From a virus: a stretch of 52,062 nt of DNA. The stretch spans positions 1 to 52,062 of the IMG/VR virus record IMGVR_UViG_3300032053_000111; one strand, written 5' to 3'. Below, one piece after another: positions 29,420 through 45,148 of this stretch. Within the stretch, counting starts at the first letter, position 1. Each line of letters begins with the position of its first letter. The notes beneath the pieces are model-generated. The model was not told where the DNA came from. It was given only the letters and a program-made list of their open reading frames with translations, and did not search any database. A program made the translations under genes and the position numbers.

Positions 29420-30809
29420 GGAATGCTTTCACCAATTGGTCAATACTACCAGGTTCTTGTGTACCAGAAGCAGTCTCAATAAGGTTAGCCATAATGTAGG
29501 TCTTGTCACCACCATCATAAGGCTTAAGACCGAGTTCATTTCGAGCCTCATTAGGCTTGAGAACCCCATGTTCTATCTGTTTAGATTGTCTATCAGCAAT
29601 CACAGTCATGTTTCTGATATCCAACACCTTGAACTTCATCTTATATTTGGTAACTCCCAGTCCGACAGTCAGAATCATATTGAAGATTGCTTCCAGGTCC
29701 TCTTGCAGTGGCTCAACAACACCATTAATGTAAATCTTCGTAGATTCCTCAGCAACATTACCACCTAACTGACCTATGACTCTCATACCTATACGCTCGG
29801 GTGGCATGGAATATGCAATCAGGATGTTCTCTTTCCTTGTCTTCTCATACCTCTCAAAACTCAAATCACGATCTTTGGCTGCAACATCAAGTGGATTGAA
29901 ATCAAGTTTGAATTCATCAGTCTGTGACAAGATTAAAACCTTATGTGCATTACTGGCACTCTTCAATTCAGTCTTGAAGAAGTTTCTTATCTGCTGCTCT
30001 GCTTTAGGGTCCCACTCGCCAGACAAGGTAACTATAGAAGATGGAATACCACAGTTATCGAAGAATGAAAGATTATAATCCCTACATCCAATAAGTCCAA
30101 CCACATCACCTATCGCAGAGATTATGTTTGGGGCACCGTAGAAATCAGATCGCGGGTACGGAGCTTTATAGTGAATCATCTCGTGTGCTGAAGGATCAAC
30201 TGAATTATTGTTAGCCTCAGACTTGACTTTACCATCCTTGCTTGATCTATCTTCCTTGTCTCCGAACTTCTTGAACCACACATGCTTGTCATCTCTCGTC
30301 TGACAGTATACAGTTTTCTCGTTATTCACCTTCATAGTTTGAGCTGGGACACGATACAATTTGGCAACATTCCCTGTATTATTTCTAACGACTTCCATGT
30401 AGAAATTACCTATCGTACCCCAATCAACTATAAGTTCTATAACCATTCCACGTAGGGACTTACCCTCACATGCATTACTGAAGAATTCTTTCGCTTTTGC
30501 AGATTCACCTCTATCCTCTTCTGCTTCTTCCTCTTTTTGTAATGTCCAACCATGACCAGCAACATCTTTACCTATCTGATTGACACAAGCCCAAAAGACA
30601 GAACTTGCTTCATATAGAATCAGCAACGCATCAGCAGAAAATGGCAAATCTATAAGCCCATGTTCTGTGAGATAGTTAGATTCGATCTTCAACTGACTAC
30701 TATTTGGACCCTCATCCAGATCAGATACTGACTTAACCATCTCAGTCAGTTTGCTTGGTCTTTCAATGACTATCGCACTGACCTTCTTATTCTCCATCTG
30801 TTCCGTCAT
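29394..30809 (-). CDS. Portal protein (HK97 type)
   Basis: A 471-residue protein with HK97-type portal features: ALLILYEASSVFWACVNQIGKDVAGHGW near the start, a central domain with KLYRVPAQTMKV and HEMIHYKAPYPRSDFYGAP, and RENILIAYSMPPERIG plus the helical stem toward the C-terminus. The gene order terminase-portal-MuF is as expected. Twelve copies would form the vertex through which DNA enters. Confidence 0.9.
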   Translation of the reverse strand: MTEQMENKKVSAIVIERPSKLTEMVKSVSDLDEGPNSSQLKIESNYLTEHGLIDLPFSADALLILYEASSVFWACVNQIGKDVAGHGWTLQKEEEAEEDRGESAKAKEFFSNACEGKSLRGMVIELIVDWGTIGNFYMEVVRNNTGNVAKLYRVPAQTMKVNNEKTVYCQTRDDKHVWFKKFGDKEDRSSKDGKVKSEANNNSVDPSAHEMIHYKAPYPRSDFYGAPNIISAIGDVVGLIGCRDYNLSFFDNCGIPSSIVTLSGEWDPKAEQQIRNFFKTELKSASNAHKVLILSQTDEFKLDFNPLDVAAKDRDLSFERYEKTRKENILIAYSMPPERIGMRVIGQLGGNVAEESTKIYINGVVEPLQEDLEAIFNMILTVGLGVTKYKMKFKVLDIRNMTVIADRQSKQIEHGVLKPNEARNELGLKPYDGGDKTYIMANLIETASGTQEPGSIDQLVKAFHESNSHKT

Positions 30810-32142
30810 ATATTATCCTACCTTTCTTTGCTTTTCTACAAAGGGAATACAGGACATACCTAAGTGCACTAACAGCATGGTCATTCTTGGGAACAGGTAA
30901 TTCCTTAGCATCCCTAAGTCTAGTACCTTTCGGATGACTATAGGTGAAAAACTCATTGATTGTATTTCTGCAGTTGGCAAACACGTACAGACTCGGCCTA
31001 CCATTCTCCTTCAACCTCAACTTGGATTGTACCAATTCTATACCAGGAAGCACATCCTTCTTAGCCATCTTGGTAGGAATTCCATGCTTGGTCATTTCAC
31101 TGCGATCTTCTGCATTTTCTGGATCAGCAAATGAGATTTCAAAAGTTTCACCCTCACTCTTAGCAAGGACCTTTTCTATATGATCGATGATGGAAGTCTG
31201 TGGTCTGTAATACTCCCTATATACATAGAATTCATCATCAGGACTTCTTGCTACCCACAAGCATACAAACGGATTTGTAAATCCAAAGTCGAACCCTCTA
31301 TATCTGGTCCAATCTGCAGGAATCTCGAATGGTTGCACAACGTTATTCAGTTTATTGAAGTCTTTATACACAAGCCCAAAGTATTTGGTAAACCTACCAT
31401 GGATTCTAGCGGCTTGGACTTCATCCGACCACTCATTAATCTTCTTATCAATCACTGCATCCGGAATATAGCCACCACGACTTTTCCTATTCCATTCCAG
31501 GTCAACCACAAAAATATCATCCGAATCGGGTAGGTTTTCTACACGTTCTTCAAGAGTAGGTTGTGACATGATAGGGCTGAGAGACCAAGATAATCTACCA
31601 TTCTTCACAAGCAATCTTGCCTGAATTTCCTCAAATATACTTTGGAAATCACTCAGACACTGTTCATCACCGTGGAAGGTATCAATCTTTCTACCCTGAA
31701 ACAAACTCCTGCCTTGGTTGAATGCTTTGAATTCGATATTATGACCGTTCTTAAGTTCTATTCGTTTGGGAACTCTATCTTGTCCATAGTTAATATGAAG
31801 TATATTACAATTAGGAATAAACTTGGATAGATAGTCACCCCAAAGAATATCTCTAACCTGATCCCACGATTCGATTGCTGCCCAGTGGGTACCCCTCTCA
31901 ATCTTAATATATGGATGGACTTCAAGTGCAATCATCGCTAAGTCCATCATATTAGTGTAGGTTTTACCGGACTGATTACCACCAAATAACCACCGAACAG
32001 ATTTATCTGAAGCATGGAATCTAGTATGTTCCGCGGTCAAAGGCTTATATAATGACATAACATCACCCACTAATCTTATAGTAGCATTAGAAGGCAACTC
32101 ACCAGCAACTTTACAGGGTTTTATCTTGGTCTTCACTCTCAT
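30787..32142 (-). CDS. terL: Terminase large subunit
   Basis: A 451-residue packaging motor. The Walker A motif is FGGNQSGKT (53-61), Walker B is IDTFHGDEQ, and the RNase H-like nuclease has GFDFGFTNP and a later FADPEN. These cover ATPase and DNA cleavage. The ATG at 32142 overlaps the preceding gene by 32 bases. An internal ATG at 32058 could also serve, since Walker A would still follow by about 25 residues. The small subunit candidate is two genes upstream. Confidence 0.92.
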   Translation of the reverse strand: MRVKTKIKPCKVAGELPSNATIRLVGDVMSLYKPLTAEHTRFHASDKSVRWLFGGNQSGKTYTNMMDLAMIALEVHPYIKIERGTHWAAIESWDQVRDILWGDYLSKFIPNCNILHINYGQDRVPKRIELKNGHNIEFKAFNQGRSLFQGRKIDTFHGDEQCLSDFQSIFEEIQARLLVKNGRLSWSLSPIMSQPTLEERVENLPDSDDIFVVDLEWNRKSRGGYIPDAVIDKKINEWSDEVQAARIHGRFTKYFGLVYKDFNKLNNVVQPFEIPADWTRYRGFDFGFTNPFVCLWVARSPDDEFYVYREYYRPQTSIIDHIEKVLAKSEGETFEISFADPENAEDRSEMTKHGIPTKMAKKDVLPGIELVQSKLRLKENGRPSLYVFANCRNTINEFFTYSHPKGTRLRDAKELPVPKNDHAVSALRYVLYSLCRKAKKGRIIYDGTDGE

Positions 32143-32457: not shown

Positions 32458-32814
32458 CTACTTTTTCTTCGAAACCTTTTTGGTTTCAGATTTCTCTTCA
32501 GTGAGTTCTTGTTTCACATTCTCCATACTTCTCTTCAGTGCAATCCGTACAAGTTCTGCTTCCTCAGAAGACATCCTGTCTTCAACAACATTGAGGAATG
32601 CATCGAGAGATTTCAGATCAGGCAACAACTTCCTCATTACAGCAATAAGTACCGAGTCATCCGCTAATGCTCGCCTCACGAAGTGCTTCAACAGATTTTT
32701 CTTTGTATCCTTCTCTACACTCTTTATAGCTGCAATGAATGCATCATTCAATTCACCACGTGGTCCAACTGGTCTTCCATACGGATTACCTGATTGACCT
32801 TTCGTGAACGGCAT
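32458..32814 (-). CDS. Small terminase-like protein (DUF5681 type)
   Basis: A 118-residue protein starting MPFTKGQSGNPYGRPVG, the hallmark of DUF5681 proteins located next to large terminases. The rest is helical and ends in a Lys-rich tail. A DNA recognition role in packaging is likely from position. The binding site GAGGTG lies just upstream of the ATG. Confidence 0.72.
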   Translation of the reverse strand: MPFTKGQSGNPYGRPVGPRGELNDAFIAAIKSVEKDTKKNLLKHFVRRALADDSVLIAVMRKLLPDLKSLDAFLNVVEDRMSSEEAELVRIALKRSMENVKQELTEEKSETKKVSKKK

Positions 32815-33093: not shown

Positions 33094-33486
33094 TCACAGT
33101 AAATCACTTGTCTTTTTGGGTAACGAGTATTTATTATAGTTTGGAATCTTGTGTTTAGGTGAAGATGGCTGTATATTGAATGTTGCGGTTGGTGAGTTTA
33201 CATCCATGATCATAACACTTGGTGTAATAACCACATAGGTTATATTCACCTTAGAAGTCATACCACATCTGTACTTGGCCAACTCAGTAATGAAGGTTCC
33301 AGTAGATACAGCCAAAACCAGCAATACCACACCCAAGAACATAGCAATGATTCGCTTCATCCGTCTTGGTAAAGCTTTCATTATCTTCCACATATACCTC
33401 AATACGCGTTTAGCACAGCCAAGTGTAGCTGTTTCCACGTAAGTCAGTTTCATTTTCAGCCAACTCATTATCATATTCAAGCTCAC
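33094..33486 (-). CDS. Single-pass membrane protein, first gene of the structural operon
   Basis: A 130-residue protein. A basic N-terminus (RRMKRII) precedes one membrane segment (AMFLGVVLLVLAVSTGTFI) and an external-type C-terminal region. A spanin-like role is possible but not supported by motif. GTG at 33486 has AGGAG seven bases upstream; an ATG 12 bases downstream is an alternative. A small frame ends at the same point (GTGA overlap), but its own start is weak. Confidence 0.55.
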   Translation of the reverse strand: MSLNMIMSWLKMKLTYVETATLGCAKRVLRYMWKIMKALPRRMKRIIAMFLGVVLLVLAVSTGTFITELAKYRCGMTSKVNITYVVITPSVMIMDVNSPTATFNIQPSSPKHKIPNYNKYSLPKKTSDLL

Positions 33487-34168
33487 CGTAGTACTCCTAT
33501 CTTAGTGCATAACCTATCTACGCAACACTCAAGCATGTGTTCACCAATAAGATTGGTTTCTCCCGTCAATCCTGCACGGTGAAGGCTGGGTACCATATTT
33601 ATAGGACCATCAATGATTATTATGGGACCTATCTGAAATATCCAACTTAGTCCTATAACTATCACTATTATTGGTCACGCCCTATATTAGTGCAGTTACT
33701 GGGGAAACGCTTGCACATATTATGTAACCTTATACCATAGGGAACATAATTCTAGCCTATCCCAATCTGTGTGGCCCTATAATATATGGGAGAGCAACCA
33801 ACCGTATCCATTATTATTATACACATGTGTAGTCCCATAATAGCAACTTCTAAGCCTGTACCAGTGCCTATATTATGCACAAGGAGGAGCGATATTATGG
33901 GACGCAGCGAGGGACATGCAAGCGAGCAGCTTACACTATTATAAGACCAACTAGGTATTGATGTTGGCTTATATAATATGGTCCAGTCTGGACCGCGATT
34001 GGATATTTTATGAGACACTGTATAGGAAGATTGGGTCCACTTTTAATGATAATACTGTCCAATGGAATCACCTATTATGGGACCAAATATGGAGAGGATA
34101 GAATGAGTCCTATAATATATCTGGGAAATAATTATAAGACTTAATGATAATGTCCTATAATATGTGAA

Positions 34169-34465
34169 CTATTTGCTTGTTATTTCAATAAAAGTTGGGT
34201 CACATAATAAAGCCAATCTAATAGCTTGCAGGTCACTTTTGCTTGTTGGTCTTATATTGTTGGCATTTTCGACACACCAAGTGAAGAAATTATGTGGACA
34301 AGTTATTTGGTGGTCTCGGCCAATATTATAAGACTTTGCCAATTGGCACGCTTGGTCAAAAGTGAACTTATTATTGGACCTTATTGCTGCACAAAGAACG
34401 TCACAAAATGTTTGACCGTGTTCAATCAAATGCATCACATTATTAAGCGCTTGTTCGGTTCCCAT
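34169..34465 (-). CDS. Hypothetical protein inside the repeat region
   Basis: A 98-residue protein with ordinary composition and no low complexity (ALNNVMHLIEHGQTFCDVLC, HNFFTWCVENANNIRP). GGAG lies seven bases upstream of its ATG, and the motif TATTATGGGA overlaps the start codon. Another motif copy (TATTATAGGAC) lies just after the stop. No family is recognised. Confidence 0.6.
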   Translation of the reverse strand: MGTEQALNNVMHLIEHGQTFCDVLCAAIRSNNKFTFDQACQLAKSYNIGRDHQITCPHNFFTWCVENANNIRPTSKSDLQAIRLALLCDPTFIEITSK

Positions 34466-34760
34466 AATAAGTCTCCAATTTGGTTAGAATTGATTGGTCA
34501 CATAATAAACTTGCCAATGGGCTTTGCCAATGGGCTCTAATATATTATAGCATGCAATTTGTTCAAAAAATAGTTAACTTACTTATGGGGCGTAAAATAG
34601 TTCAAATTTAATTATAGGACTAATGATAATATCCTACGTTCATTAAATGGCACTATTATAAGATCATATGAGCCCAAATAAAAATGAGTCCCATAGTCCA
34701 GTATGGAACCAGATTATGAGACCAACAGAAAAGGGGTGGTCCTATAATAATGATAATGTT

Positions 34761-34933
34761 AACCAACCGTTACACTCCCCATAATGTATCACTCACTGAT
34801 AAGAGTTTGCCACTATTATGGGGAGTTAGTGGTGTCTCATAATAAGTTTAATCTGATAGCCGTTTGAGACATATTATAGGATATGTCTCTGGTAGTCAGC
34901 GCGGCAACTTATTATGTGGCGTAACGGTTGGTT
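34761..34933. repeat. Nested perfect inverted repeats
   Basis: AACCAACCGTTAC (34761-34773) and GTAACGGTTGGTT (34921-34933) are perfect inverse complements of 13 bases. Nested next to the left arm, ACTCCCCATAAT (34774-34785) pairs perfectly with ATTATGGGGAGT (34815-34826). The pairing could form a cruciform in DNA or an RNA hairpin. It lies amid the repeat array. Confidence 0.8.
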
Positions 34934-35087
34934 TCAACACCCCATAATGTTGTTTATGCATCCTACATCTGACACATATTATAGGGTGTTAAAATCGATC
35001 GTTGGGAAGAGAAGTCCTATAATGGTGCTTAGTATTGACATATGCTGCAACCATTATAAGACTAAGTCCGAAGTCTCATAAGAATGC

Positions 35088-35423
35088 TTAATCGCGGTTG
35101 TTATAGGCATTCTTATACCACGCGTAGTGGTATTTGTTGAACTTGGTGGTTGGCTTGATAGATTTGGCCACCTTATAGGACTCTTCGTACGTCACCTTTT
35201 CGACTCCCTTCTTGTCAAAAATGGCAAAGATGGCTTGTGTGATGCTCTTTCGAACCTTTTTGCCCTTTTTGCCCTTTTTGCCATCCTTGGAATCCTTTTT
35301 ACTGGACTTTGGCGTTTTCTCGGTCGATTTGACCTTCTTATGGGTCGTTTCGACGAGTTCCGAAGTTCCCATAACAGTGGTTCCCTCAGCCACAACAGCA
35401 ACTCCATTATTGGACTCTAACAT
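35088..35423 (-). CDS. Lysine-rich protein with C-terminal AWYKN domain, copy A
   Basis: I chose the ATG at 35423 because AGGAG lies seven bases upstream; it gives 111 residues. A long Lys/Ser-rich tail (about residues 26-58) is followed by a compact C-terminal domain with ITQAIFAIFDKKGVEKV and KFNKYHYAWYKNAYNNRD. The same domain occurs in the proteins at 44046-44306 and 44656-45099. The basic tail suggests DNA or RNA binding. The function is unknown. This copy lies within the repeat array, and motif-like sequences occur inside its coding region. Confidence 0.75.
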   Translation of the reverse strand: MLESNNGVAVVAEGTTVMGTSELVETTHKKVKSTEKTPKSSKKDSKDGKKGKKGKKVRKSITQAIFAIFDKKGVEKVTYEESYKVAKSIKPTTKFNKYHYAWYKNAYNNRD

Positions 35424-36077
35424 TGTGTTACTCCTCATAAAAATGATACTTTGGAACGTTAGTGACCACAATTATGTGACCTATTTTGTGTCCCATAAAA
35501 CGTTCAAGGGAACACTATTATGGGCTCTTGTTGTGTAGGTCACATAATAGTAGCCACTAACTCCCGACATGGTACATTATTATATGCCGTATACTCAGTC
35601 CTATAATGTACCATGTCATCCATTATATGAGCGTTCAATACGCTACATAATCTTCTCCTTTCATCCCGATTTGGTTGTCAAAGAACATGGTTTTTATAAG
35701 ACTGACTTTGAACTTGTCTGAGCCACTGTATACATGTATATTATAGCATATTATTTATTAAATGAAAACCAAATAGTTTAATTTTGTTCAAATTTTATTA
35801 TGAGACCTACAATATAATATGTCCAATATCATCCAAACATTGGCTATATTATGTATGAAGTCCTATAATAGGAATTCTATACTTAGAATGTACAGAATCA
35901 AGATTTTTGCCAACAACACCTCGTTTTTGATAATGATAATAACCCAAAAAGTTATACATAATTGGAACTGAGAAAAGTGACGTTCTATTGGTAGTTAACA
36001 ATTGGTCCAGTTAGACAACTATAAAATATACTTGTTATAGGACCAAACTAGTCTCAAGTCCTATAACTGACTATTTG

Positions 36078-36320
36078 ATACAGATAGTACTAATGACAAT
36101 GTTGATATATACAGCACAGATAGTACATATGGTATGAATGAATTAAATGGTACAAATAGAATAAGTAATACAGATGATAAGATTGATATAGATGGTACAT
36201 ATGGTATAAACGACCCTAATGATAATGTTGGTATGGATGACATGAATGATACAGATAGTACACTAGTCAGATATGATATGGATTGTACAGATTGTATAGA
36301 TTGTACAAAACAGTACAAAA
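36078..36320. repeat. Degenerate GATACAGATAGTAC-type low-complexity repeats
   Basis: The 14-mer GATACAGATAGTAC occurs at 36078 and again near 36248. Between them GTACATATGGTAT recurs with flanking similarity. All copies keep the same reading frame on the plus strand, which would encode an Asp/Asn/Thr-rich chain (36134-36358 from the first ATG), but no ribosome binding site is seen. A tandem-expansion origin is likely. Confidence 0.6.
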
Positions 36321-36436
36321 CGTACAACCAGTATAGTCATAATAATCGGCACAAATGATATGTTTACTTTACATGATACAAAGTGTATAATGATAATACA
36401 CAGAATAAGCAGTACAGATGATACAAACAGAAATGA

Positions 36437-36530
36437 GTCCCATAATGCTATAGAGTCCTATAATACTCAGGTCCTATAATGTTATGGTCCTATAATAATT
36501 CAAGTCCTATAATAATTTGAGTCCCATAAA
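36437..36530. repeat. Six-copy iteron-like array, 16-18 bp period
   Basis: GTCC(T/C)ATAA(T/A) begins at 36437, 36455, 36471, 36487, 36504 and 36521, giving spacings of 18, 16, 16, 17 and 17 bases, all on the plus strand. This is the tightest part of the repeat region. Iterons with near helical-multiple spacing are classic binding sites for replication initiators. No initiator is identified here; the AAA+ helicase at 45.8-47.2 kb or the lysine-rich proteins are candidates. Confidence 0.85.
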
Positions 36531-36633
36531 AGGAGAGAGAGGGGAAACCAGCTATTGGAACTCAAGAAAAGTTGGGCGGTTATACCCCAGAATTTGACTT
36601 GAACATTTCAGAATGCGAGTAGATTTGATTCAT

Positions 36634-36819
36634 CTATAGAATGACAGATTCCAGTTTGACGACAGATTTCTGCAGATTTATCCAGGAATCTACCAATTCT
36701 ATATATGATTTGTAGTGAGACCGCTTTTGAAAGTTACAACATGACAGTCGAAAGTATCGTTGTCTATACTTTGTCACGTCGGAAACTACTGCAAGATACC
36801 TAGTGGCTGCATTACGCAA
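36634..36819 (-). CDS. Uncertain small protein
   Basis: A 61-codon frame with protein-like composition (RNAATRYLAVVSDVTKYRQRYF, YIELVDSWINLQKSVVKLE). The only usable start is TTG without a convincing ribosome binding site, and the frame closes 30 bases upstream. It may be the remnant of a longer gene. The rest of 36535-36957 shows nothing else I can support. Confidence 0.3.
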   Translation of the reverse strand: MRNAATRYLAVVSDVTKYRQRYFRLSCCNFQKRSHYKSYIELVDSWINLQKSVVKLESVIL

Positions 36820-36957
36820 CTCGACATGTTTAGAAATTAGTATATCATGTCATCGCAAATGGATGGCAGTAATGATTTCTGTGGATATTTCAATTTGAAT
36901 TTCATAGTGAATTACCTTTCTAAAAAGCCAAAATGCCGGTGGAAAGTCCTTTTCAAA

Positions 36958-36988
36958 TAGGCCCCCTAGGACCCCCTGGATAGGGCCT
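36958..36988 (-). terminator. Possible hairpin terminator after the accessory operon
   Basis: Right after the 36989 stop the minus strand reads AGGCCC, an intervening C/G-rich loop, then GGGCCT, with an extra CTA/TAG pair. The stem is at least six pairs and is followed by a short T-containing stretch (ATTTG). It is a plausible end for the 45.1-37.0 kb operon, but the weak T-tail makes it uncertain. Confidence 0.45.
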
Positions 36989-37219
36989 TTACAGATCTAA
37001 ATCTTTCCTTATTAGTGTGTAGATATATTTACCAGCAAACTCAAACGACATATTCAGATCCCTTGTGTGTTGTATAAGTACAGCCACCTTGGTTGTATAG
37101 GCAAGGTTAGATGCTTGCCCTACAAAATGTTTGATGATGTGTTTAGCAGCTATCTTAGGTTTACACCGTCTGTAGTTGAAGAGGATATTAGCAACTACTT
37201 CTCTCGGGTAAGTAGGCAT
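36989..37219 (-). CDS. Small basic hypothetical protein
   Basis: A 76-residue protein starting at the ATG at 37219, five bases behind AAAGG. It is basic and helical (YRRCKPKIAAKHIIKHFVGQA). No family is recognised. It is the last gene of the accessory operon. Confidence 0.55.
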   Translation of the reverse strand: MPTYPREVVANILFNYRRCKPKIAAKHIIKHFVGQASNLAYTTKVAVLIQHTRDLNMSFEFAGKYIYTLIRKDLDL

Positions 37220-37272
37220 CATCACCTTTCAAAACTTAGCAATGATTACTTTGATTGAATCCACAGTACACA

Positions 37273-37347
37273 TTATTCCGTGGATAACTCGTTCCAACCT
37301 AAAGCTGAAAGAAGAACACCAGCAAATATACCTTCCAGAAATCTCAT
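37273..37347 (-). CDS. Micro-protein with hydrophobic segment
   Basis: A 24-residue frame (MRFLEGIFAGVLLSALGW, then NELSTE) with a strong GGAGG six bases upstream of the ATG and directly after the cysteine-rich gene. The hydrophobic stretch could insert in a membrane. Its shortness means it needs proof. Confidence 0.4.
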   Translation of the reverse strand: MRFLEGIFAGVLLSALGWNELSTE

Positions 37348-37350
37348 GGA

Positions 37351-37521
37351 TTACCTCCAACAGGAAAAAGTAGGATATTTAACTACACAAATGAATCTCT
37401 TCGAACAGGTCTCACATATCTTTGGTGTTGTACACTTATCACAGTCAAACAAACACCGATGCCTTTCGATACACTTAGTCTTGAGTTCTTGGTATAGTTG
37501 TTCTTCAATTGATCTACTCAT
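37351..37521 (-). CDS. Small cysteine-rich protein, zinc-binding type
   Basis: A 56-residue protein with cysteines CLFDCDKC, then ICETC and further C residues, suggesting one zinc site. The ATG overlaps the previous stop as ATGA, supporting the start. No known family. Confidence 0.6.
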   Translation of the reverse strand: MSRSIEEQLYQELKTKCIERHRCLFDCDKCTTPKICETCSKRFICVVKYPTFSCWR

Positions 37522-37730
37522 TGTTGATTATTCTCCAAACCTTTAACTTTTGCAGATCTAACCATAGTCACAAAATTCTCAAGTGTAGATGGGCACAAGT
37601 TAACATCAAACTGATCACAATAATTATTCTTTAATATACACCAGTCCTTAGAGAATGAATCAGTGGTATTAAGTATTCTCTGCCCACACTTAATACGACC
37701 ACTTCCATCTTCTTCTGTTAGATATAACAA
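37518..37730 (-). CDS. Small hypothetical protein
   Basis: A 70-residue protein starting with TTG at 37730, seven bases behind AAAGGAG. It has three cysteines and ends with NNQQ over the next start (ATGA). No family is recognised. Confidence 0.6.
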   Translation of the reverse strand: MLYLTEEDGSGRIKCGQRILNTTDSFSKDWCILKNNYCDQFDVNLCPSTLENFVTMVRSAKVKGLENNQQ

Positions 37731-37797
37731 GCTTAATCTCCTTTGACTTCAATTGTGATTGATCTACACATGGATGTATAGGGATAGATGTTCTATC

Positions 37798-38076
37798 TCA
37801 CAAATGGTTTCGCTTGTATTCCTTTCTTGTATAGTATATCAGCATTGCTACCCAGACTATATTGGCAGTAACAGTACCTATTCCACCGAAGAACGACAGC
37901 CACTGATTAAGATGAGGATAGTAATACAAATTCCAGAAACCCCATAAGACAAAGGTAGTAACAGCAGCAATACTCGTACCGCGCACCATCTTCTGTCTAT
38001 AGAGTTTGATACAGTGGAGAGTAATAAAGATTCCACCACAAAGTTCAAAGACTCCGTTTGTTGTATCTTGCCACAT
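37798..38076 (-). CDS. Small multi-pass membrane protein
   Basis: A 92-residue protein with about three membrane segments (GVFELCGGIFITLHCI; TSIAAVTTFVLWGFWNLYY; GIGTVTANIVWVAMLIYY) and a basic end. Phages often carry such proteins. The function is unknown. The start overlaps the ligase stop as TAATG. Confidence 0.6.
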   Translation of the reverse strand: MWQDTTNGVFELCGGIFITLHCIKLYRQKMVRGTSIAAVTTFVLWGFWNLYYYPHLNQWLSFFGGIGTVTANIVWVAMLIYYTRKEYKRNHL

Positions 38077-38951
38077 TACATATCTCTCTCATCTCTGAGC
38101 CCGATGAATGTAGGAAAGCGTGGTCCATCTTTGCAGCCATAAGGCTGGAATCTATACTTCACAACCTTACCAAGATACTTCTTTCGATTAGTCCAGATTT
38201 CTGCACGCTGTTCATCATCAAAACCAGATCCTACACTGAGGGTCCAAGCGTGCTTTTCATCTGTACAGAGTAATGCACCAAGTACACCCATTGGTATCAT
38301 ACCCTCTTTGTAAGTGTGTCGTTTGGTAGTATGAAGTTCATCACCAATCAGCACATTATCGTTGTGTACCTTTTCTTCGAATCCGATGATTACTGCTTCA
38401 CTATCTTCGAAGCGTTTGAGTTTGAGAAAATAACCCTCCTTCTCAGTAGATCGACCAAACTTGTAGGGTCCACCTGGTGATCGAATGATGATACCCTCAT
38501 AACCTTCAACCAGACACTTTTCTTCAAACTTAACCAGCTCTACTGAATTACAGATAGTAACAGGTAGAAGTTTTCGCATTCCAGGTGGTGCAACAAGACG
38601 ATCAAGATCGTTCATACGACAATTATATGGAACAGTAGGACAATCATCCATTAGGTCAAATGTCCAATGTTCAACCACACTTGATACACAATCTCTTGTC
38701 ATTACTATACTGGAAACCTGGTTGAGCCTCAACCCCGGTACCATCAACTCACAATCGATACCATCCGGAAAGTCCCTCTCGATTCTATGCCTCAAACTGA
38801 TATTGGGTATCGGCTTTAATGAGCGAGTTACTGCCTTGCCATCTCGCTTGAGACAGCGTATGCCATCGAGTTTCGGAGTGCACATTACAGGATACCTAAG
38901 TCTGGATACATCTGTACATTTACCAGCAAGCATGGGTTTGAATGATGACAT
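38076..38951 (-). CDS. ATP-dependent DNA ligase
   Basis: A 291-residue compact ligase. The adenylation lysine is in CTPKLDG (K27 in motif I, KxDG). A further nucleotidyltransferase motif EGYEGIIIRSP and the FLKLKRF segment (motif V) follow, then a C-terminal OB-like domain with GVLGALLC and KVVKYRFQPYG. No BRCT or DNA-binding extension is seen. It seals nicks during phage replication or repair. The start follows GAGGAGGAG. The 38952-39090 gap holds only tiny frames. Confidence 0.9.
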   Translation of the reverse strand: MSSFKPMLAGKCTDVSRLRYPVMCTPKLDGIRCLKRDGKAVTRSLKPIPNISLRHRIERDFPDGIDCELMVPGLRLNQVSSIVMTRDCVSSVVEHWTFDLMDDCPTVPYNCRMNDLDRLVAPPGMRKLLPVTICNSVELVKFEEKCLVEGYEGIIIRSPGGPYKFGRSTEKEGYFLKLKRFEDSEAVIIGFEEKVHNDNVLIGDELHTTKRHTYKEGMIPMGVLGALLCTDEKHAWTLSVGSGFDDEQRAEIWTNRKKYLGKVVKYRFQPYGCKDGPRFPTFIGLRDERDM

Positions 38952-39090
38952 CAGAGTTACTCCTCCTCAAAGTCCAAGTTTCTACGTGTTGCTTCATCAG
39001 AGTCTTTAACGGAAAGCACAAGCCCCTGGGTGTACTAAGACCTTACAACCAAAACATATACGCCTACATTTCATGTTAAGCCTTTCACTC

Positions 39091-39369
39091 TCATGGTTTG
39101 TTGTACACTCTTCTCCAACCGAGGCGCCAGAGAAATCTTGCTATATCGTCTGTCTTAGCTATTCCATCCGCATGATGGAGGGCTTTATCTGGTATGCCAA
39201 TGGCATGAAGTGCTTCATGTAAAGCATTATCGAGAGTATTGATTGTAGTACCATCTACAAGTGTTATCAGGTGGTACCCCTTTTCTCCTATATCAGTAAT
39301 ACCACCAATATAGTTAGCATACTGGATGTTATACTTTACACCGTTGAATGTATGAGTTCTGGGTTTCAT
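39091..39369 (-). CDS. Small HExxH zinc-metallopeptidase-like protein
   Basis: A 92-residue protein with the motif LHEALHAIG, a HExxH zinc site, and a later HH pair (ALHHADG) that could supply the third ligand. The remainder is a short beta-alpha fold. Similar small HEALHA proteins occur in phage genomes as uncharacterised metallopeptidase-like genes. A role in lysis or in protein processing is possible but not shown. Confidence 0.6.
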   Translation of the reverse strand: MKPRTHTFNGVKYNIQYANYIGGITDIGEKGYHLITLVDGTTINTLDNALHEALHAIGIPDKALHHADGIAKTDDIARFLWRLGWRRVYNKP

Positions 39370-40058
39370 ACTGTTGTAAGAATCTTCTCATCAACCAGTT
39401 CTTGCTTAACCTCCTTGACTAATGCCTGAGTCTCAGGTTGTTGTGTATTTAGTACACTCTTGAGACTGGCAAAAATGCTACTTGATGCTGATGCAACACC
39501 ACCGACAAATGGGATAGTAGTCTCTGATCTAAGTTTGAGATTATCCTTGAATGTTTGAACTGTACCAACTACGTCTTTGAATGCACTCTTGAGTTGGCCA
39601 GCAGTGAGTGCCTTTGTTTTAAGGGTACGAGTAGTCATCACAACAACCACAATAAGTATGACACCCACGAAAATCAAGCCAGATAACATGTATACACTCA
39701 CTACTGAAAAAGCGGCTTTCATCCCTGCACCAAGTATACATCCAGCAGAAACGAGCCATCCGGATTTTATACCGTGCAAGCCAGCAATGGCACCCAAGAC
39801 AGTGACAACTATGAATGCAGTCATGAGCCAATCTGTCGAGTGTACTGTTTGTATGATGGTTCTTGTATCACTTGCTGAGGGTGAGAGGATCCTGTTTAAT
39901 ACTGTAGGTGAAGTCACAGGTTGATCTGTGATCGATGGTGCTTTCACGTGTGGAAAACATCCACCACATGTGAAGGCAACTATACACACTCCAACAACTG
40001 CAAGCACTCCAACAATAAGGTAGATGAGTGCAACAATTCGCGTGTTCTCGGGTTTCAT
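39366..40058 (-). CDS. Multi-pass membrane protein
   Basis: A 230-residue protein. It has an N-terminal membrane segment (IYLIVGVLAVVGVCIVAFTC) with a CGGC close to its end, a central hydrophobic region of about three segments (WLMTAFIVVTVLGAIAG; LVSAGCILGAGMKAAF; SGLIFVGVILIVVVVM), and a charged coiled C-terminal tail. The function is unknown; holin-like or anti-superinfection roles are possible. Confidence 0.55.
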   Translation of the reverse strand: MKPENTRIVALIYLIVGVLAVVGVCIVAFTCGGCFPHVKAPSITDQPVTSPTVLNRILSPSASDTRTIIQTVHSTDWLMTAFIVVTVLGAIAGLHGIKSGWLVSAGCILGAGMKAAFSVVSVYMLSGLIFVGVILIVVVVMTTRTLKTKALTAGQLKSAFKDVVGTVQTFKDNLKLRSETTIPFVGGVASASSSIFASLKSVLNTQQPETQALVKEVKQELVDEKILTTV

Positions 40059-40091
40059 CTTCTGTTACCTTTCATAATGGGTATATTTCAT

Positions 40092-40226
40092 CTACTTACA
40101 AAGTAGACGAAGACCAAAGTTATGTTCCTCGTCAAGTATTTTCAATTCCCCCTTAAGTTTTCTATTTTCAGATCTGAGTTTCTTGTTCTCTGCAAGAACC
40201 TGTACAAATTTTCGATTAGACGACAT
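40092..40226 (-). CDS. Small coiled-coil protein
   Basis: A 44-residue frame (FVQVLAENKKLRSENRKLKG, then ELKILDEEHN) behind GAGG with eight-base spacing. It has a clear heptad-like Lys/Leu/Glu pattern. It lies between the DUF4326 and the membrane protein genes. The function is unknown. Confidence 0.5.
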   Translation of the reverse strand: MSSNRKFVQVLAENKKLRSENRKLKGELKILDEEHNFGLRLLCK

Positions 40227-40235
40227 AGTTGTTCC

Positions 40236-40685
40236 TCAAAAATCGGGTAGTTTTTGTATCCACATTGCGATGGTTCGTAAAGATTTACCATCAGCAAACA
40301 TTGCAAGTATAGTACCATGACAGTTATAGGGAGTACACCAACACAAGAGGGTTCTACCTTTCAACCTCTTAGCCTTGCGTTGGAGTACCTTGTCATCCTT
40401 GAATCCAGGATGACCAGGTGTACCATGAAAGAACTTGGAGATGACTTGACGCCTGTTGCCATCCTTAAGACTTATCTTGTATGGATTACCAAACTCACTT
40501 GGTCGCCCAACAAATGTAGTCTTCAATCCTTTCGCATGACGGCGAGTATGTGCTACCGAAGTTGGCATCTTCTTCATGCTACCCTCCCTATCAATCTTGC
40601 CAGTGAAGTGTTGTTTATCACGTATCTTAGCAATACGGTCTAAACCGTCTGCAAAGTCACTCAGTGTAAATTCATCTTTTGTCAT
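40236..40685 (-). CDS. DUF4326 protein
   Basis: A 149-residue protein from the ATG at 40685. It has the DUF4326 layout: a KTTFVGRPSEFGNPYKI segment, a central helical region and GRTLLCWCTPYNCHGTILA near the end. The family is widely spread in phages and its chemistry is unknown. It is in the same operon as a broken NADAR gene. An inverted repeat about 110 bases upstream may regulate it. Confidence 0.82.
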   Translation of the reverse strand: MTKDEFTLSDFADGLDRIAKIRDKQHFTGKIDREGSMKKMPTSVAHTRRHAKGLKTTFVGRPSEFGNPYKISLKDGNRRQVISKFFHGTPGHPGFKDDKVLQRKAKRLKGRTLLCWCTPYNCHGTILAMFADGKSLRTIAMWIQKLPDF

Positions 40686-40798
40686 CTTCAAAATTCCAGA
40701 AATCAGAAATTATTCACTTTGAGTCTACTATAACAAAGGTTGAACTGATCGAACACAAAATTATTGTGGAACCGAGTCAAGTTTTCGTCCAATTTTTA

Positions 40799-40909
40799 CG
40801 TAACGTTATAAGGCCCCCAGAGTATATCTACAGTGTAATAAACTATTAAAACCAATATATTTAAGTATACCCCCCTAATATATTATACTGGGGGTGTAAT
40901 AACGTTACG
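40799..40909. promoter_or_regulatory. Large imperfect inverted repeat with competing C5/G5 arms
   Basis: Left arm (40799-40826) and right arm (40884-40909) are near inverse complements, with a perfect outer 11 bases CGTAACGTTAT, then CCCCCAG and AGTATA. Within the loop a second CCCCCC run (40870-40875) could also pair with the same G run. Such mutually exclusive pairing is a feature of attenuators or RNA switches. It could also be a protein binding site. The rest of 40692-41021 is AT-rich with no supported gene. Confidence 0.7.
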
Positions 40910-41021
40910 AGGAAAAGAAACAAAAGTGCATTACCGACATCAAAAAGGCATTCACCTATAGAAAACGATAACACCTAATCGATATGGAAAGAAGTTGTTA
41001 TTTATCGGATTTAATCAACTT

Positions 41022-41348
41022 TTAATTGGTTTTCTGCCTATTTTTGATCGATCTACTTTGATCGATATGGTGTTTCAAAATGATATTTGTTATATCGTCC
41101 CATTTAAGATATTGACATATCCATGCGAATGCCATTGGACCGACTCGATCAAATAGACCAAGAACACTATTACAGTGAGAACACAAAAGACCACGTTGTT
41201 TTCCAGTTCTATGGTCATGATCATCCTCGGAATAGAAACCAATGGTGGGAGGGTGGTTTGCAGTCTTCCTGGGATGATTGGGAACGCGGTCGACTGGATC
41301 ACCTCGAGCGGCTTAAGCACCTGGAGGTCGCATGATCTCGCGGTGCAT
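41022..41348 (-). pseudogene. Truncated or interrupted endonuclease VII-like HNH gene
   Basis: The C-terminal part has the endonuclease VII signature: DDHDHRTGKQRGLLCSHCNSV. The gene begins at an ATG (41348) behind GGAGG, but a TAA codon (41313-41315) stops it after 11 residues; beyond that stop the frame is open to 41022 and has no other good start. The usual first CxxC pair is missing. The 5' part is GC-rich and the 3' part AT-rich, so the break may be a recombination joint with the foreign-looking segment to its right. Confidence 0.75.
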
Positions 41349-41366
41349 CTCTGCCTCCGCGAAAAA

Positions 41367-41792
41367 TTATTCAAACCTGCCCTTAATACCTTTTACGGTT
41401 GCGTAAAAGCAATCAACCATTTTTCCAATCTCAGTCTTCACTCGGTTAGTTGGACACCACGAGTCCAGTTTTTGCTGGACAATAGGCAGCGACTCAGAAG
41501 TGAATTCCATGTGTTGATACCGAGGATTTGTGCTTGACAGTATTCCTCCGAGCCGAAAGAGGACGTCTTCTAACTCCCTCGAATGAGGGACCCCTCCCCT
41601 GGTAATGAAATAGAAATCCCTGAAATACTGGGGGTACTCTTCTGAGAGCTTCTTGAACCCAATGTATATGGCGTCACGTGAGATTGAGGGGAGCTTGTTG
41701 TTGTGGAAGGTCAGACCGAGTATGAGGTACACCAGATCCGTAGGCGAGAGTTGCCCCTGCGTTGTGCGTTTCGATCTCACGCTCCTGTTCAT
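41367..41792 (-). CDS. Hypothetical protein of foreign base composition
   Basis: A 141-residue protein (LSPTDLVYLILGLTFHNNK, FYFITRGGVPHSRELEDVL, then SESLPIVQQKLDSW). AAAGGAG lies upstream. The gene and its flanks are clearly richer in G and C than the rest of the phage, which suggests recent gain. No family is recognised. It may carry a short DNA- or protein-binding domain. Confidence 0.7.
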   Translation of the reverse strand: MNRSVRSKRTTQGQLSPTDLVYLILGLTFHNNKLPSISRDAIYIGFKKLSEEYPQYFRDFYFITRGGVPHSRELEDVLFRLGGILSSTNPRYQHMEFTSESLPIVQQKLDSWCPTNRVKTEIGKMVDCFYATVKGIKGRFE

Positions 41793-41842
41793 AGTGTCTC
41801 CTTTCCCAAAGATTAGTCGAGGCCGACAAAAAATGTATTATA

Positions 41843-42031
41843 TCACAAGAGGGCTGGGTGGTCGAGTTTACCAATCCAAGACATCATTGTAGAACATCTT
41901 CTACACAAGTGTCTTTTTATTCCATCAACCTTCTTGGTGTCTCTAACTGTAGTTAATCTATCGCAAATCCAGCAAAGTTGTGTTTGAAACTCATCTGGTA
42001 TATTGTATTTGACTTTATCTACCGTCTTCAT
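41843..42031 (-). CDS. Small zinc-ribbon protein
   Basis: A 62-residue protein with CWIC and CRRC pairs 28 residues apart, a simple zinc ribbon. The ATG follows AGGAAAG. The function is unknown. Confidence 0.65.
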   Translation of the reverse strand: MKTVDKVKYNIPDEFQTQLCWICDRLTTVRDTKKVDGIKRHLCRRCSTMMSWIGKLDHPALL

Positions 42032-42046
42032 AATTCTTTCCTACGG

Positions 42047-42196
42047 CTAAGCAGTGGAGTCCCAGGCGTCCCAGCAGTAAGTACTAACTGAAAGAATAAG
42101 CCCAGTATAAAATGATACAGTTAACGTCTCTTTCGTGTCAGGGGAGAACCGTACGAGCACATTTTTGCGTCGGTTGTGGTCGAGTAAACGATTCAT
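42047..42196 (-). CDS. Small hypothetical protein
   Basis: A 49-residue protein (MNRLLDHNRRKNVLVRF...) that overlaps the stop of the preceding gene as ATGA. Basic N-terminus and hydrophobic middle. No family recognised. Confidence 0.5.
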   Translation of the reverse strand: MNRLLDHNRRKNVLVRFSPDTKETLTVSFYTGLILSVSTYCWDAWDSTA

Positions 42197-42429
42197 GGCA
42201 TGCGTTTGACATCCTGTGTATGCTGTTGGATGAAATGAAATGAGGGTGAATTCTTCTGTAGGTCTTTCAAAAAATCACTCACAACCTTGTCTATTAAAAG
42301 GTGTATCGTGAATTGTCGGAATGCCGTGTTTGCAAGATAATGTATTGCTCTTCTGTGCTTACCTGACATCCATAGACGTGCTGACATTCGGACCATATGA
42401 CTCAACTGTTTATATTGAAGTTTAGTCAT
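42193..42429 (-). CDS. Small basic helical protein
   Basis: A 78-residue protein with basic helical sequence (HMVRMSARLWMSGKHRRAIH). AAGGA precedes the ATG. No family is recognised. Confidence 0.55.
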   Translation of the reverse strand: MTKLQYKQLSHMVRMSARLWMSGKHRRAIHYLANTAFRQFTIHLLIDKVVSDFLKDLQKNSPSFHFIQQHTQDVKRMP

Positions 42430-42432
42430 TAG

Positions 42433-42584
42433 TTATCCTTGTAGAAGACTTGATCTAATCTTCATGAGCAATCTACCAAGATAATTCTCACCAAGATCAC
42501 CTTTACATGTTTACACAGACAACAACCCCAAAAGTTAGAGAGCCAACGATACTTACCTATGAATGGCCCTATTGATGATTGCAT
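42433..42584 (-). pseudogene. Remnant NADAR (YbiA-like) gene with internal deletion
   Basis: The frame from the ATG at 42584 (behind a strong GGAGG) begins with the NADAR start IGPFIGKYRWLSNFW, then runs out of frame. In a second frame the 3' end reads KGDLGENYLGRLLMKIRSSL, which resembles the NADAR C-terminus, up to TAA at 42433. The whole is only 152 bases, so most of the domain, including the middle, has been lost. NADAR proteins act on ADP-ribose conjugates, and members reverse DNA ADP-ribosylation. Confidence 0.78.
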
Positions 42585-42587
42585 TTG

Positions 42588-42860
42588 TTACCTCCGAGAT
42601 TTGCACTCTATACTTTGAGCGAACTCCAATGGTGTACAGCCGACTGAATCAGCATACATAGTACAAGCAATACAAACTGGAAAAGCTATATTACCAGGTG
42701 GTAAATATGCACCAAGTGTATTTCTTCCACAGCAAATGCACTGTCTCTCAGTGATGTGTGATCCTCTAATATACAGGTGTGACTTGTAATCGCGGTGAAG
42801 AACGGTATAAAATACAATCCCAAGGATCGGAGCAAGTATAATACAAATCAACAAAAGCAT
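42588..42860 (-). CDS. Membrane-anchored zinc-ribbon protein
   Basis: A 90-residue protein: one N-terminal membrane segment (LLLICIILAPILGIVFY) and a C-terminal zinc site (CICCGR...CIACTMY). It starts at the ATG behind AGGAG at 42860. The function is unknown. Confidence 0.6.
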   Translation of the reverse strand: MLLLICIILAPILGIVFYTVLHRDYKSHLYIRGSHITERQCICCGRNTLGAYLPPGNIAFPVCIACTMYADSVGCTPLEFAQSIECKSRR

Positions 42861-42869
42861 TTTCATCTC

Positions 42870-43334
42870 CTATGTAATACCAAAGAAGGTTGGTTTCAAA
42901 CGAAAGTTGAACTCGGCATTGACCATCTTTATAAGTTTGTAGGTAGAATCCTGTGCATTACTGATGTATTCAGCGTAGGTCATATTTGTACCCTCAAATA
43001 CATCAATATCATGCCTCAAAGCTTCGACCAGCATATATTTGAAATCAACCAAATCAAACTTATCGTTCAGTTTTTGTTTCTTGTGTATTGTAGGTGTAAA
43101 GTTTGGCTGTTTAACGGGTGGTACATAATCACATGTTTTGATTGAAGATTCTGAGTCATCATCATCAGCATCAGGTGCAAGAAAACTATAGTCAGGATGC
43201 TTTTCTTCTGGCTCAGGTGCAGGACGAATGTTAACAACAAAACCACAGTTTGAACACAAGAAACTCCTTGTTTGATTATCCAAGTTTTGCATTGGATCGA
43301 GTATATTACCACACTGCAAGCAGAAGAGTTTCAT
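42870..43334 (-). CDS. Zinc-ribbon protein with RPB9/RpoM-like N-terminus
   Basis: A 154-residue protein from the ATG at 43334 (MKLFCLQCGNILDPM...FLCSNCGFVV). The paired CxxC motifs with CGN/CG are like the N-terminal zinc ribbon of RNA polymerase subunit RPB9 and archaeal TFS/RpoM. The middle is acidic (DADDDDSESS), and the end is a helical domain. A transcription-related role is possible, but the C-terminal ribbon of those proteins is absent. It is a two-part protein of unknown function. Confidence 0.6.
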   Translation of the reverse strand: MKLFCLQCGNILDPMQNLDNQTRSFLCSNCGFVVNIRPAPEPEEKHPDYSFLAPDADDDDSESSIKTCDYVPPVKQPNFTPTIHKKQKLNDKFDLVDFKYMLVEALRHDIDVFEGTNMTYAEYISNAQDSTYKLIKMVNAEFNFRLKPTFFGIT

Positions 43335-43396
43335 ATTATACCTATAAAATAACCTCCCCCGCATGGTACGAGGGAGGTATCGGAGGGGTGATGATG

Positions 43397-43591
43397 TCAA
43401 CTCGGCACACTCACACTGATAGTGATTCTCTCTGGCTTACCGAGCACTTCAAAAGCTGTGTTCTGTAGGTACAAGGAAGTTGTAACCTGATCGCTGTCAT
43501 CCTCAGACCTGTATCGAACACAGGATTTGCACTTCTTGTCAACCTTGAGAGTAGTTGTTGCAACCTTTGTAACTTCTTTCGCTGCTGGCAT
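43397..43591 (-). CDS. Small hypothetical protein
   Basis: A 64-residue protein from the ATG at 43591, behind AAGGGAAG, with a CKSC pair near its centre. It ends as ITISVSVPS. It starts directly after the zinc-ribbon gene stop. The function is unknown. Confidence 0.55.
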   Translation of the reverse strand: MPAAKEVTKVATTTLKVDKKCKSCVRYRSEDDSDQVTTSLYLQNTAFEVLGKPERITISVSVPS

Positions 43592-43592
43592 C

Positions 43593-43799
43593 TTACTTCC
43601 CTTTCTCGATTGGGGCATCCTCATTGAGGAAATGTCCACTGTTCTTATTGATACATACCTGAGAACAACACAATTGCCCATTAGTTGGAATGAACTTGTT
43701 ACCACAGACTGGACACACCTTTTGTACTAATTGGTCATTATTGATTCCTCCTATTTCAGTTTGATGTATAGTAAACAATAGTTGAGAATCTTCCATCAT
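43593..43799 (-). CDS. Small zinc-ribbon protein
   Basis: A 68-residue protein with CPVCGNKFIPTNGQLCCSQVC, a treble-clef-like zinc site of FCS type. AGGAGG precedes the ATG. The function is unknown. Confidence 0.65.
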   Translation of the reverse strand: MMEDSQLLFTIHQTEIGGINNDQLVQKVCPVCGNKFIPTNGQLCCSQVCINKNSGHFLNEDAPIEKGK

Positions 43800-43916
43800 A
43801 CCTCCTAATAAGTGGGTTTCCTGCTTCCCATCCAGTGCTTGGCATCAAGTTGTACCTTGATGTGGTCACTCCAGACACTGGTAGGGAAGGAGGAACATCG
43901 TGCTCATATTATTCCA

Positions 43917-44027
43917 GTGGGGCGTAACCCTTGATTAGCCGCAGCTTCATCAGAAAGAGTATACGCCCCACGTTGCAATCTGGGTGCACAATCTACTGGA
44001 TTTAGTTCACAGTTCGAGTTGTGCACC
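43917..44027. other. Twin hairpins downstream of lysine-rich copy B
   Basis: GTGGGGCGTA (43917-43926) pairs perfectly with TACGCCCCAC (43962-43971), and GGTGCACAA (43983-43991) with TTGTGCACC (44019-44027). Both are in the 246-base gap 43800-44045. The gap also contains weak small frames without convincing starts. It may be an RNA element or binding sites. It lies downstream of the 44046-44306 gene. Confidence 0.55.
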
Positions 44028-44045
44028 ACAGTGGAGGAAGGGAGT

Positions 44046-44306
44046 CTACTGGTTCCTGTACTTGTTCTTGTACCAAGCCAGATGGTGACCATCAAAAGTC
44101 GTATCGGGTTTGGCCTTCACTGCAACCGCCTTTGCCTGTTCGAGCTTGACCTTCTCGACTCCGACCTTGGCAAACAGCTCGAAAATGGCTTTGGACACAG
44201 CACCTCGCTTTGTCTTGCCACTCTTTCCATCCTTGATACCCTTGACATCCTTGGTTTTCTTGGTATCCTTATCCTTATCCTTATCCTTTTTGATGAACTT
44301 ACTCAT
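44046..44306 (-). CDS. Lysine-rich protein with AWYKN domain, copy B
   Basis: An 86-residue protein. The N-terminal half is rich in Lys and Asp (KKDKDKDKDTKKTKDVKG), and the C-terminal half has the shared domain: VSKAIFELFAKVGVEKVKL and TFDGHHLAWYKNKYRNQ. It is the shortest of three paralogues. The likeness to copy A (35088-35423) is strong over the last 55 residues. A nucleic acid binding role is inferred from charge. The start overlaps the next gene's stop. Confidence 0.75.
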   Translation of the reverse strand: MSKFIKKDKDKDKDTKKTKDVKGIKDGKSGKTKRGAVSKAIFELFAKVGVEKVKLEQAKAVAVKAKPDTTFDGHHLAWYKNKYRNQ

Positions 44307-44496
44307 CTGACACTCCTAAAACATGCTTGATGGGTGAACCACCTGCTGCTGGTGGTTTACTATCGATTGATGTGTTGGGGGGATTCTTACATGTTTTGCA
44401 GACATCACTACCTCTACTGAAGCAAGTAATGTCTAAAGTCCACCCACATGCAGCACACACTTTACGCCTGATCCACTTACCACCCGCTCTTAACAT
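44299..44496 (-). CDS. Small zinc-ribbon protein
   Basis: A 65-residue protein with CAACGW...CKTC, a zinc ribbon, and a basic N-terminus (KWIRRKV). AGGTGA precedes the ATG. Function unknown. Confidence 0.6.
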   Translation of the reverse strand: MLRAGGKWIRRKVCAACGWTLDITCFSRGSDVCKTCKNPPNTSIDSKPPAAGGSPIKHVLGVSDE

Positions 44497-44499
44497 TGG

Positions 44500-44652
44500 T
44501 CACCTGTCATCTGGCTTCAATACCTGTATTTCAATCCTCCTGATATAAAATGCAGGACACTGTTGCTTATTCTTTCTGTCACGGTTAAGATTCATCTTCC
44601 TACATGAACCTTCACACTTACCACCAGAAGCACACATTTCCGTACGATCCAT
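44500..44652 (-). CDS. Small cysteine-containing protein
   Basis: A 50-residue protein (MDRTEMCASGGKCEGSC...) with CxxxxxxC and CxxxC pairs. An AGG lies upstream, and the stop overlaps the next gene's binding site. Function unknown. Confidence 0.5.
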   Translation of the reverse strand: MDRTEMCASGGKCEGSCRKMNLNRDRKNKQQCPAFYIRRIEIQVLKPDDR

Positions 44653-44655
44653 AGC

Positions 44656-45099
44656 CTAAACCTTTCTTTTGAGTTTTCCCTTCTTCCACTGGTTGAGATA
44701 CCAATTGTAATGATTTTTGTTGAATGGTGAGGTGGCTTTGACTGCAATAACCACATCATGCATTTCTTTGTAGGTTGGAACCTTCTTACCTTTGCTTTCA
44801 AGTAAATCAACTACTGCATTGGTTACTGAACCTTTACGGAGTGTAGGTTTTCGTGTAGTAGGATTAGAACTAGGATCAGTGAGTGCTCGTTTGGCATCCA
44901 TGATGCACCAGCATTGAACACACAATTGATTGGATATGCCGTTCAATGCATTCATGGCTTTATTACTACACCCTGGAGTGATGCATCTTAGATAGTCAAT
45001 ATCGAGTGAACTGGTACCATACTTGTGAGAGATGGGACCAATATCAGATTCTGCATCCGCATGTTTGGAATGCTTGAGTCGAAACTTACTGGCATTCAT
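44656..45099 (-). CDS. Zinc-ribbon plus AWYKN-type domain protein, copy C
   Basis: A 147-residue protein. The first half has a zinc-binding segment (CITPGCSN...LCVQCW), absent in the other two copies. The second half has the shared domain: SVTNAVVDLLESKGKKV and PFNKNHYNWYLNQWKKGKL. It is the promoter-proximal gene of the accessory operon. The three copies share the same fold but differ in the N-terminal attachment. Function unknown. Confidence 0.75.
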   Translation of the reverse strand: MNASKFRLKHSKHADAESDIGPISHKYGTSSLDIDYLRCITPGCSNKAMNALNGISNQLCVQCWCIMDAKRALTDPSSNPTTRKPTLRKGSVTNAVVDLLESKGKKVPTYKEMHDVVIAVKATSPFNKNHYNWYLNQWKKGKLKRKV

Positions 45100-45148
45100 A
45101 ATTTACCCTTTCACTTGTCAAAGAACACTGTGGCAAATAAAGATATTC

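Follow-up and report, generated by a model that had tools for sequence, protein, structure and literature searches.

What a compact phage could gain by giving up 3 kb of its genome to copies of one short word is the question raised by this locus. The window (the whole stretch of DNA analysed, 52,062 nucleotides of an IMG/VR record) represents an uncultivated tailed phage. Almost all of its identifiable genes are encoded by the minus strand, among them those for terminase, portal, a Mu F-like protein, head protease and tail proteins, as well as a family A polymerase, exonuclease, ligase, Sak4-like protein and uracil-DNA glycosylase. The ends of the record (1-137 and 51926-52062) were identical bar one mismatch, an overlap of 137 bp that exact-match tests miss. 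Thus, the genome is probably circular, as the original prediction had assumed, and the record probably represents either the full circle or a terminally redundant map of ca. 51.9 kb. The early genes occupy 36989-52021, and the repeat-filled block lies between them and the first late genes. The region 33487-36988 corresponds to 6.7% of the genome, matching the earlier estimate of about 7%. Phage genomes are compact, so devoting 6%-7% of one to binding sites implies that the benefit is strong. The features of the block and of its surroundings are listed in Table 1.

Enrichment and form of the repeated half-site

Dozens of motif copies in both orientations had been noticed by eye, and a matrix scan for this word (motif A) bore this out. 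In 33487-36540, 57 sites of at least 10 bits were found (18.7 per kb; 29 forward and 28 reverse), compared with a mean of 2.0 and a maximum of 6 in order-2 Markov copies of the region. Outside the block, there were seven sites (0.14 per kb) against 6.0 expected; the motif is not equally frequent elsewhere. Because the matrix (16 columns, iteratively refined) was trained on the region itself, two less circular checks matter. Sixteen of the 17 exact copies of GTCCYATAAT in the window fell in 33487-36988, and in L002, a related IMG/VR contig outside the matrix training, 13 of 18 motif A matches lay within the first 500 bp. The matrix, the pair units and the thresholds were picked during exploration.

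The half-site, as represented by a logo from 31 arms, is asymmetric and ca. 16 bp long, reading GTC[CA][CT]ATAATA followed by a weak G/T-rich D-K-K-K tail. The CATAAT and TATAAT variants were roughly equal in frequency, and G was the sole letter never seen in column 5. The information content (R_sequence) was 14.8 bits, where 10.8 bits are needed to find the sites in the phage genome alone and 16.7 bits in a 3-Mb host. Site density was lowest at ca. 35,610-36,430. The flanks of the sites were dissimilar to one another, suggesting that most sites owe their persistence to selection on the site rather than to simple duplication. Mobile repeats and simple duplication were therefore rejected as the source of the array, which is also collinear with that of L002; only the direct-repeat block at its end resembles a tandem duplication.

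The sites do not behave as RNA elements or promoters. The folding of 100-base pieces was ordinary (mean z of -0.5/-0.7 inside and -0.4/-0.4 outside the block), and the arms of pairs spaced by 38-40 bp matched in 8.1 of 22 columns, compared with 7.6 of 22 for random pairs. With no paired changes in the arms and no Rfam match, an RNA or hairpin array was rejected, and the ordinary folding and unmatched arms indicate that any function of the sites is exerted as duplex DNA. An array of sigma-70 promoters was rejected as well: a -35 element 16-18 bp before the core was found 28 times, against 22.4 ± 5.7 in shuffles. The earlier argument that the CATAAT variants speak against simple promoters is thus in line with the lack of enrichment of full promoters. 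Overall, we consider it very probable that the block is a double-stranded protein-binding array.

Arrangement of the block

For every site, all partners were tallied by distance, orientation and side, so that each pair was counted from both ends. The sole strong relation was an inverted partner on the ATAAT side, 38-40 bp away from start to start (D). Such partners were found in 14 of 68 cases at D = 38 (z 13) and 9 of 68 at D = 39 (z 8), i.e., in 23 of 136 directed tests, and 17 of the 23 scored pair units in the window and L002 had a D of 38 or 39. When orientations and gaps were shuffled in the window alone, P was 0.003; this test was conservative because it retained the 39-bp gaps. Several spacings and measures were inspected before this relation was singled out; nevertheless, chance is unlikely given the z of 13 and the recurrence in L002. 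Hence, the inverted pairs described originally were confirmed and their geometry could be fixed. The spacer between paired half-sites was not conserved, and no clear 10.5-bp signal of helical phasing was seen across all spacings. One pair and its L002 orthologue had a common spacer word, GTTGCTCTCC, read on the minus strand. The array closes with a tandem run of direct sites.

A second word, TAATGATAAT (motif B), occurred seven times, always in the block and on the plus strand, against 0.04 copies expected. The original prediction had taken AATGATAAT as a general spacer between half-sites, which did not hold; its seven copies were all on the plus strand and only some of them lay between half-sites. 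The block contained five of the 100-bp stretches with the highest A+T content in the genome, the top one among them, which is a candidate unwinding element. Separately, 36061-36430 contained degenerate GAT/ACA-rich short repeats open in one plus-strand frame, which may represent either coding sequence or a decayed simple repeat.

The block had also been called almost non-coding, which was not quite right; it encloses a real gene on the minus strand, encoding a 111-aa protein with two paralogues among the early genes. Four strong motif A sites lie within this gene and none in the paralogues, indicating that the array runs through the gene.

Table 1. Positions of the array, its component sites and the genes discussed in the text
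Feature	Position	Strand	Basis or remark
Large terminase subunit	30787-32142	-	70% identical in L002
Probable small terminase subunit (DUF5681)	32458-32814	-	68% identical in L002
Small membrane protein	33094-33486	-	First gene downstream of array; L002 relative in same place
Motif A array, GTCNYATAATA	33587-36535	both	Matrix scan, Markov controls, half-site logo
Inverted half-site pair, 39 bp start to start	33679-33728		Pair scoring
Inverted half-site pair, 38 bp	33774-33822		Orthologous to L002 291-339
Motif B copy 1, TAATGATAAT	34044-34053	+	Kept in L002 in same orientation; neighbouring half-site differs there
Motif B copy 2	34142-34151	+	Exactly between two divergent motif A half-sites
Inverted half-site pair, 39 bp, weaker	34249-34298		Pair scoring
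Motif B copy 3	34621-34630	+	
Motif B copy 4	34748-34757	+	Fused to motif A half-site
Inverted half-site pair, 38 bp	34776-34824		Pair scoring
Inverted half-site pair, 38 bp	34834-34882		Pair scoring
Inverted half-site pair, 38 bp	34939-34987		Pair scoring
Inverted half-site pair, 38 bp	35014-35062		Pair scoring
Embedded gene, 111 aa	35088-35423	-	GAGGAG ribosome-binding site; Lys-rich N-terminal part and predicted three-helix C-terminal domain
Inverted half-site pair, 39 bp	35366-35415		Pair scoring; within CDS of embedded gene
Inverted half-site pair, 38 bp	35432-35480		Pair scoring
Inverted half-site pair, 39 bp	35539-35588		Pair scoring
AT-richest 100 bp of genome	35729-35828		82% A+T; mostly without motif A sites
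Motif B copy 5	35931-35940	+	
Motif B copy 6	36217-36226	+	
Motif B copy 7	36388-36397	+	
Iteron-like block	36434-36533	+	Six direct motif A sites head to tail, period 16-18 bp
Paralogue of embedded protein	44046-44306	-	50% identity over 62 aa, BLASTP E 2e-19 (pairwise)
Second paralogue of embedded protein	44656-45099	-	40% identity over 48 aa, BLASTP E 6e-12 (pairwise)
Candidate initiator or helicase, 437 aa	45850-47163	-	Walker-A-like GPSSSGKS and HTH-like C-terminal stretch, by eye

Conservation of the array and candidate binding proteins

Cultured relatives of the phage were remote (terminase identity of at most 27%), and the IMG/VR relatives comprised a near one, L002 (terminase 70% identical), and many at 54%-61%. 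The L002 contig breaks off at the start of its array, and over the part covered by the comparison (L002 1-545) it was collinear with window positions 34087-33552, with a score of 101 compared with 46-49 for reversed or non-syntenic controls. The pair spacing and the place of the array between the early and first late genes were kept, the sites were partly turned over, and the genes after the array (small membrane protein, then probable small terminase) followed in the same order. The collinearity and shared gene order suggest that the block was present at this place in the common ancestor and that single sites have turned over since. L002 thus provides a case in which the arrangement is kept while its single sites are replaced.

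The comparison with relatives supported conservation of the motif type and, in part, of the motif positions in L002. Conservation beyond L002 did not hold, as relatives at 54%-61% terminase identity had no such array at this place, and a three-site pattern search of IMG/VR found a dense array only in L002. Taken together, it is well supported that the block is a real, selected and lineage-specific protein-binding array. The same pattern search gave four matches in an unrelated viral contig (L023 2862-3017), in which two 54-bp palindromic elements with the ends GTCTCATAAT and ATTATGAGAC, ca. 96 bp apart, resembled the inverted pairs of the array.

The embedded 111-aa protein is a candidate for the array-binding protein. 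The domain shared by the three paralogues was predicted to form three helices (pLDDT 91), and in the Lys-rich paralogues it ends in H-x-x-W-Y-x-N. Neither the Pfam, PHROGs and NCBIfam models nor Foldseek gave a significant match for this family. The weak, non-significant Foldseek matches of the predicted structure were largely to TetR-type and other HTH proteins, and this likeness to HTH regulators is a lead, no more. If the family binds the array, it would be a group of DNA-binding proteins not represented in the Pfam, PHROGs and NCBIfam models searched. Another candidate, the 437-aa Walker-A-like protein, had no match in any library searched, and its fold prediction had a pLDDT of 35. No relatives of the ligase, the polymerase, the embedded protein or the Walker-A-like protein were found in the viral contigs searched, and none of the terminase or the three-helix domain in the genome contigs searched. 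A weak match to the three-helix domain in contig L058 lay inside a structural-type gene region and was dismissed as chance, as were the PDB matches.

Proposed replication origin and alternative roles

The block had been proposed as a candidate origin or organising locus. The enrichment only here, the conservation in L002 and a skew minimum agree with this proposal. No initiator was identifiable by homology; homologues of Rep, O or DnaB (including DnaB_C) were not found in the genome. We put the probability that the main job of the array is to serve as a replication origin at roughly 0.45. An origin appears to be the most likely of the options considered, with control of the late operon as its main rival, and one block could serve both. 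A protein recognising the asymmetric 16-bp half-site GTCNYATAATA would place paired subunits on inverted half-sites 38-40 bp apart, further subunits would line up head to tail on the iteron-like block, and the 3 kb would be folded into one large nucleoprotein complex. This complex would most likely fire replication of the circular genome, presumably by opening the AT-rich DNA next to it near 35.73 kb, and the TAATGATAAT words, which all point one way, would lend it polarity. Gating of the leftward late operon, which begins at the left edge of the complex, may be a further task. The binder could be a host protein, the Walker-A-like protein or a member of the embedded family. Together, the embedded family, the pair geometry and motif B would provide a testable system for studying how a large nucleoprotein complex is assembled at a single phage locus. 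A further and tentative possibility, which we regard as rather unlikely in its full form, is a new type of hub with a role in replication or organisation: a 3-kb lattice of 38-40 bp inverted pairs with a strand-specific second word, bound by an undescribed Lys-rich three-helix family of which one member is encoded within the array and has binding sites written into its CDS.

The skew analysis gave mixed support. The detrended cumulative GC skew had its minimum at 33577, at the edge of the array, as anticipated for an origin, and its maximum at 10208; these extremes are about half a circle apart, and the antipode of the array centre, at 9.1 kb, lies near the maximum. In contrast, the raw cumulative skew fell throughout and had no minimum. 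The coding-strand skew at third codon positions was 0.20 in the left arm and 0.01-0.02 in the right arm (gene-order permutation, P < 1/5000), for a gene set hand-picked from ORFs and with tests selected once the raw profile had been inspected. It also decayed along the late operon (Spearman 0.52, P = 0.008), which transcription alone could cause. The skew evidence is confounded because the late operon begins where the step occurs. Skew and the AT-rich stretch would thus fit bidirectional replication from the block, with left-arm genes read in the direction of the fork, as supportive but confounded evidence.

Comparison with known origins points both ways. In the satellite PLE, a 2.7-kb repeat-bearing non-coding region (non-coding region 3) was shown to act as the origin, to which the initiator of PLE binds (PMC7145576). 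The present block is likewise a kb-scale, repeat-bearing, largely non-coding region in a small phage-related genome; PLE, however, has few repeats and a recognisable RepA_N initiator, in contrast to the 57 sites and no recognisable initiator here. Similar to iteron origins (P1-like prophage RepA, lambda O and PLE RepA_N), many copies of a short word are clustered at one locus beside AT-rich DNA in a largely non-coding block. As to direct repeats with a near-helical period, the six sites at its end, spaced at 16-18 bp, are iteron-like, but the remainder point both ways. Unlike in those origins, most sites are in both orientations and fall into fixed inverted pairs, the copies are ca. 10 times more numerous and no RepA or O homologue was found. 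The number of sites, far more than most origins need, counts against an origin.

An alternative that we consider possible, albeit clearly less probable than not, is that the array acts as an oversized operator through which a phage repressor or activator holds down or switches on the leftward late operon from 33486. The asymmetric sites lie exactly between the early and first late genes in both the window and L002, and strong late transcription beginning at the array edge would likewise fit the skew step there. Such an operator would work in the manner of the asymmetric sites that Cluster A mycobacteriophage repressors bind in large numbers, except that here they would be concentrated at a single locus. 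Those stoperators are likewise present as tens of copies of one asymmetric 13-16 bp word in a phage genome; they are, however, spread over the genome, follow the direction of transcription and lose their function when reversed (PMC9283540). Here, the sites are paired, form one 3-kb block and point each way in nearly equal numbers (29/28), so neither dispersal nor alignment with transcription was found. Moreover, 3 kb and 57 sites far exceed the needs of an operator, full sigma-70 promoters were not enriched, and no phage repressor or integrase was found in the genome.

Other roles appear less probable still. A partition or genome-organising locus, in which a centromere-like array would hold or cluster phage genomes in the cell, would be consistent with the clustering of so many asymmetric sites and with a small Lys-rich protein family that has one of its genes inside the block. 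This role is improbable, as neither ParB_N nor a ParA-type ATPase (AAA_31) was found in the genome with positive controls detected, which led us to reject a ParABS system, and there was no integrase or other sign of a plasmid-like prophage. We attach little probability to a packaging start region recognised by the small terminase subunit. Both terminase genes are close by in the two phages, that of the small subunit 0.7 kb downstream, but the relatives at 54%-61% identity have conserved terminase without the array here, and known pac and cos regions are short. It is similarly hard to credit that the dense sites are a sponge that, during infection, titrates a DNA-binding protein of the host, either a regulator or the sigma factor of RNA polymerase. 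The YATAAT in the core is close to a -10 element, and R_sequence lies between the values for phage alone and host; a sponge, however, needs no fixed 38-40 bp inverted spacing, one-strand second word or fixed place in the genome, and the -35 part was not enriched. An array of recombination half-sites for a serine resolvase can hardly be upheld. The half-site resembles that of Tn3/gamma-delta res (TGTCTGATAATT; site I is given in PMC4499144) in the letters GTC..ATAAT, and nine of the ten letters of GTCTGATAAT fit GTCNYATAAT. However, the res subsites of ca. 28, 34 and 25 bp imply D near 15, 21 and 12, none of which was enriched (only D = 38-40 strongly was), the res letter in column 5, G, never occurs in the array, and no serine (PF00239) or tyrosine recombinase was found in the genome with positive controls detected. 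Resolvase or integron-like recombination was therefore rejected, the likeness to the Tn3 half-site being the only one found.

Several minor features were observed elsewhere. The large terminase matches in L020, L068, L069 and L070 extended over ca. 400-500 bp of DNA in excess of what the matched residues require; an intron, an intein or a broken gene may be the cause. The window also carries a B12-binding/radical-SAM-like gene (4660-5781) and a peptidase-U32-like gene (7050-8171), the second of which has relatives among T4-like phage proteins at < 30% identity. Between early genes, at 45149-45199, a 25-bp unit (AATCGACACAATACCTAATAGGTAT) is repeated twice in tandem.
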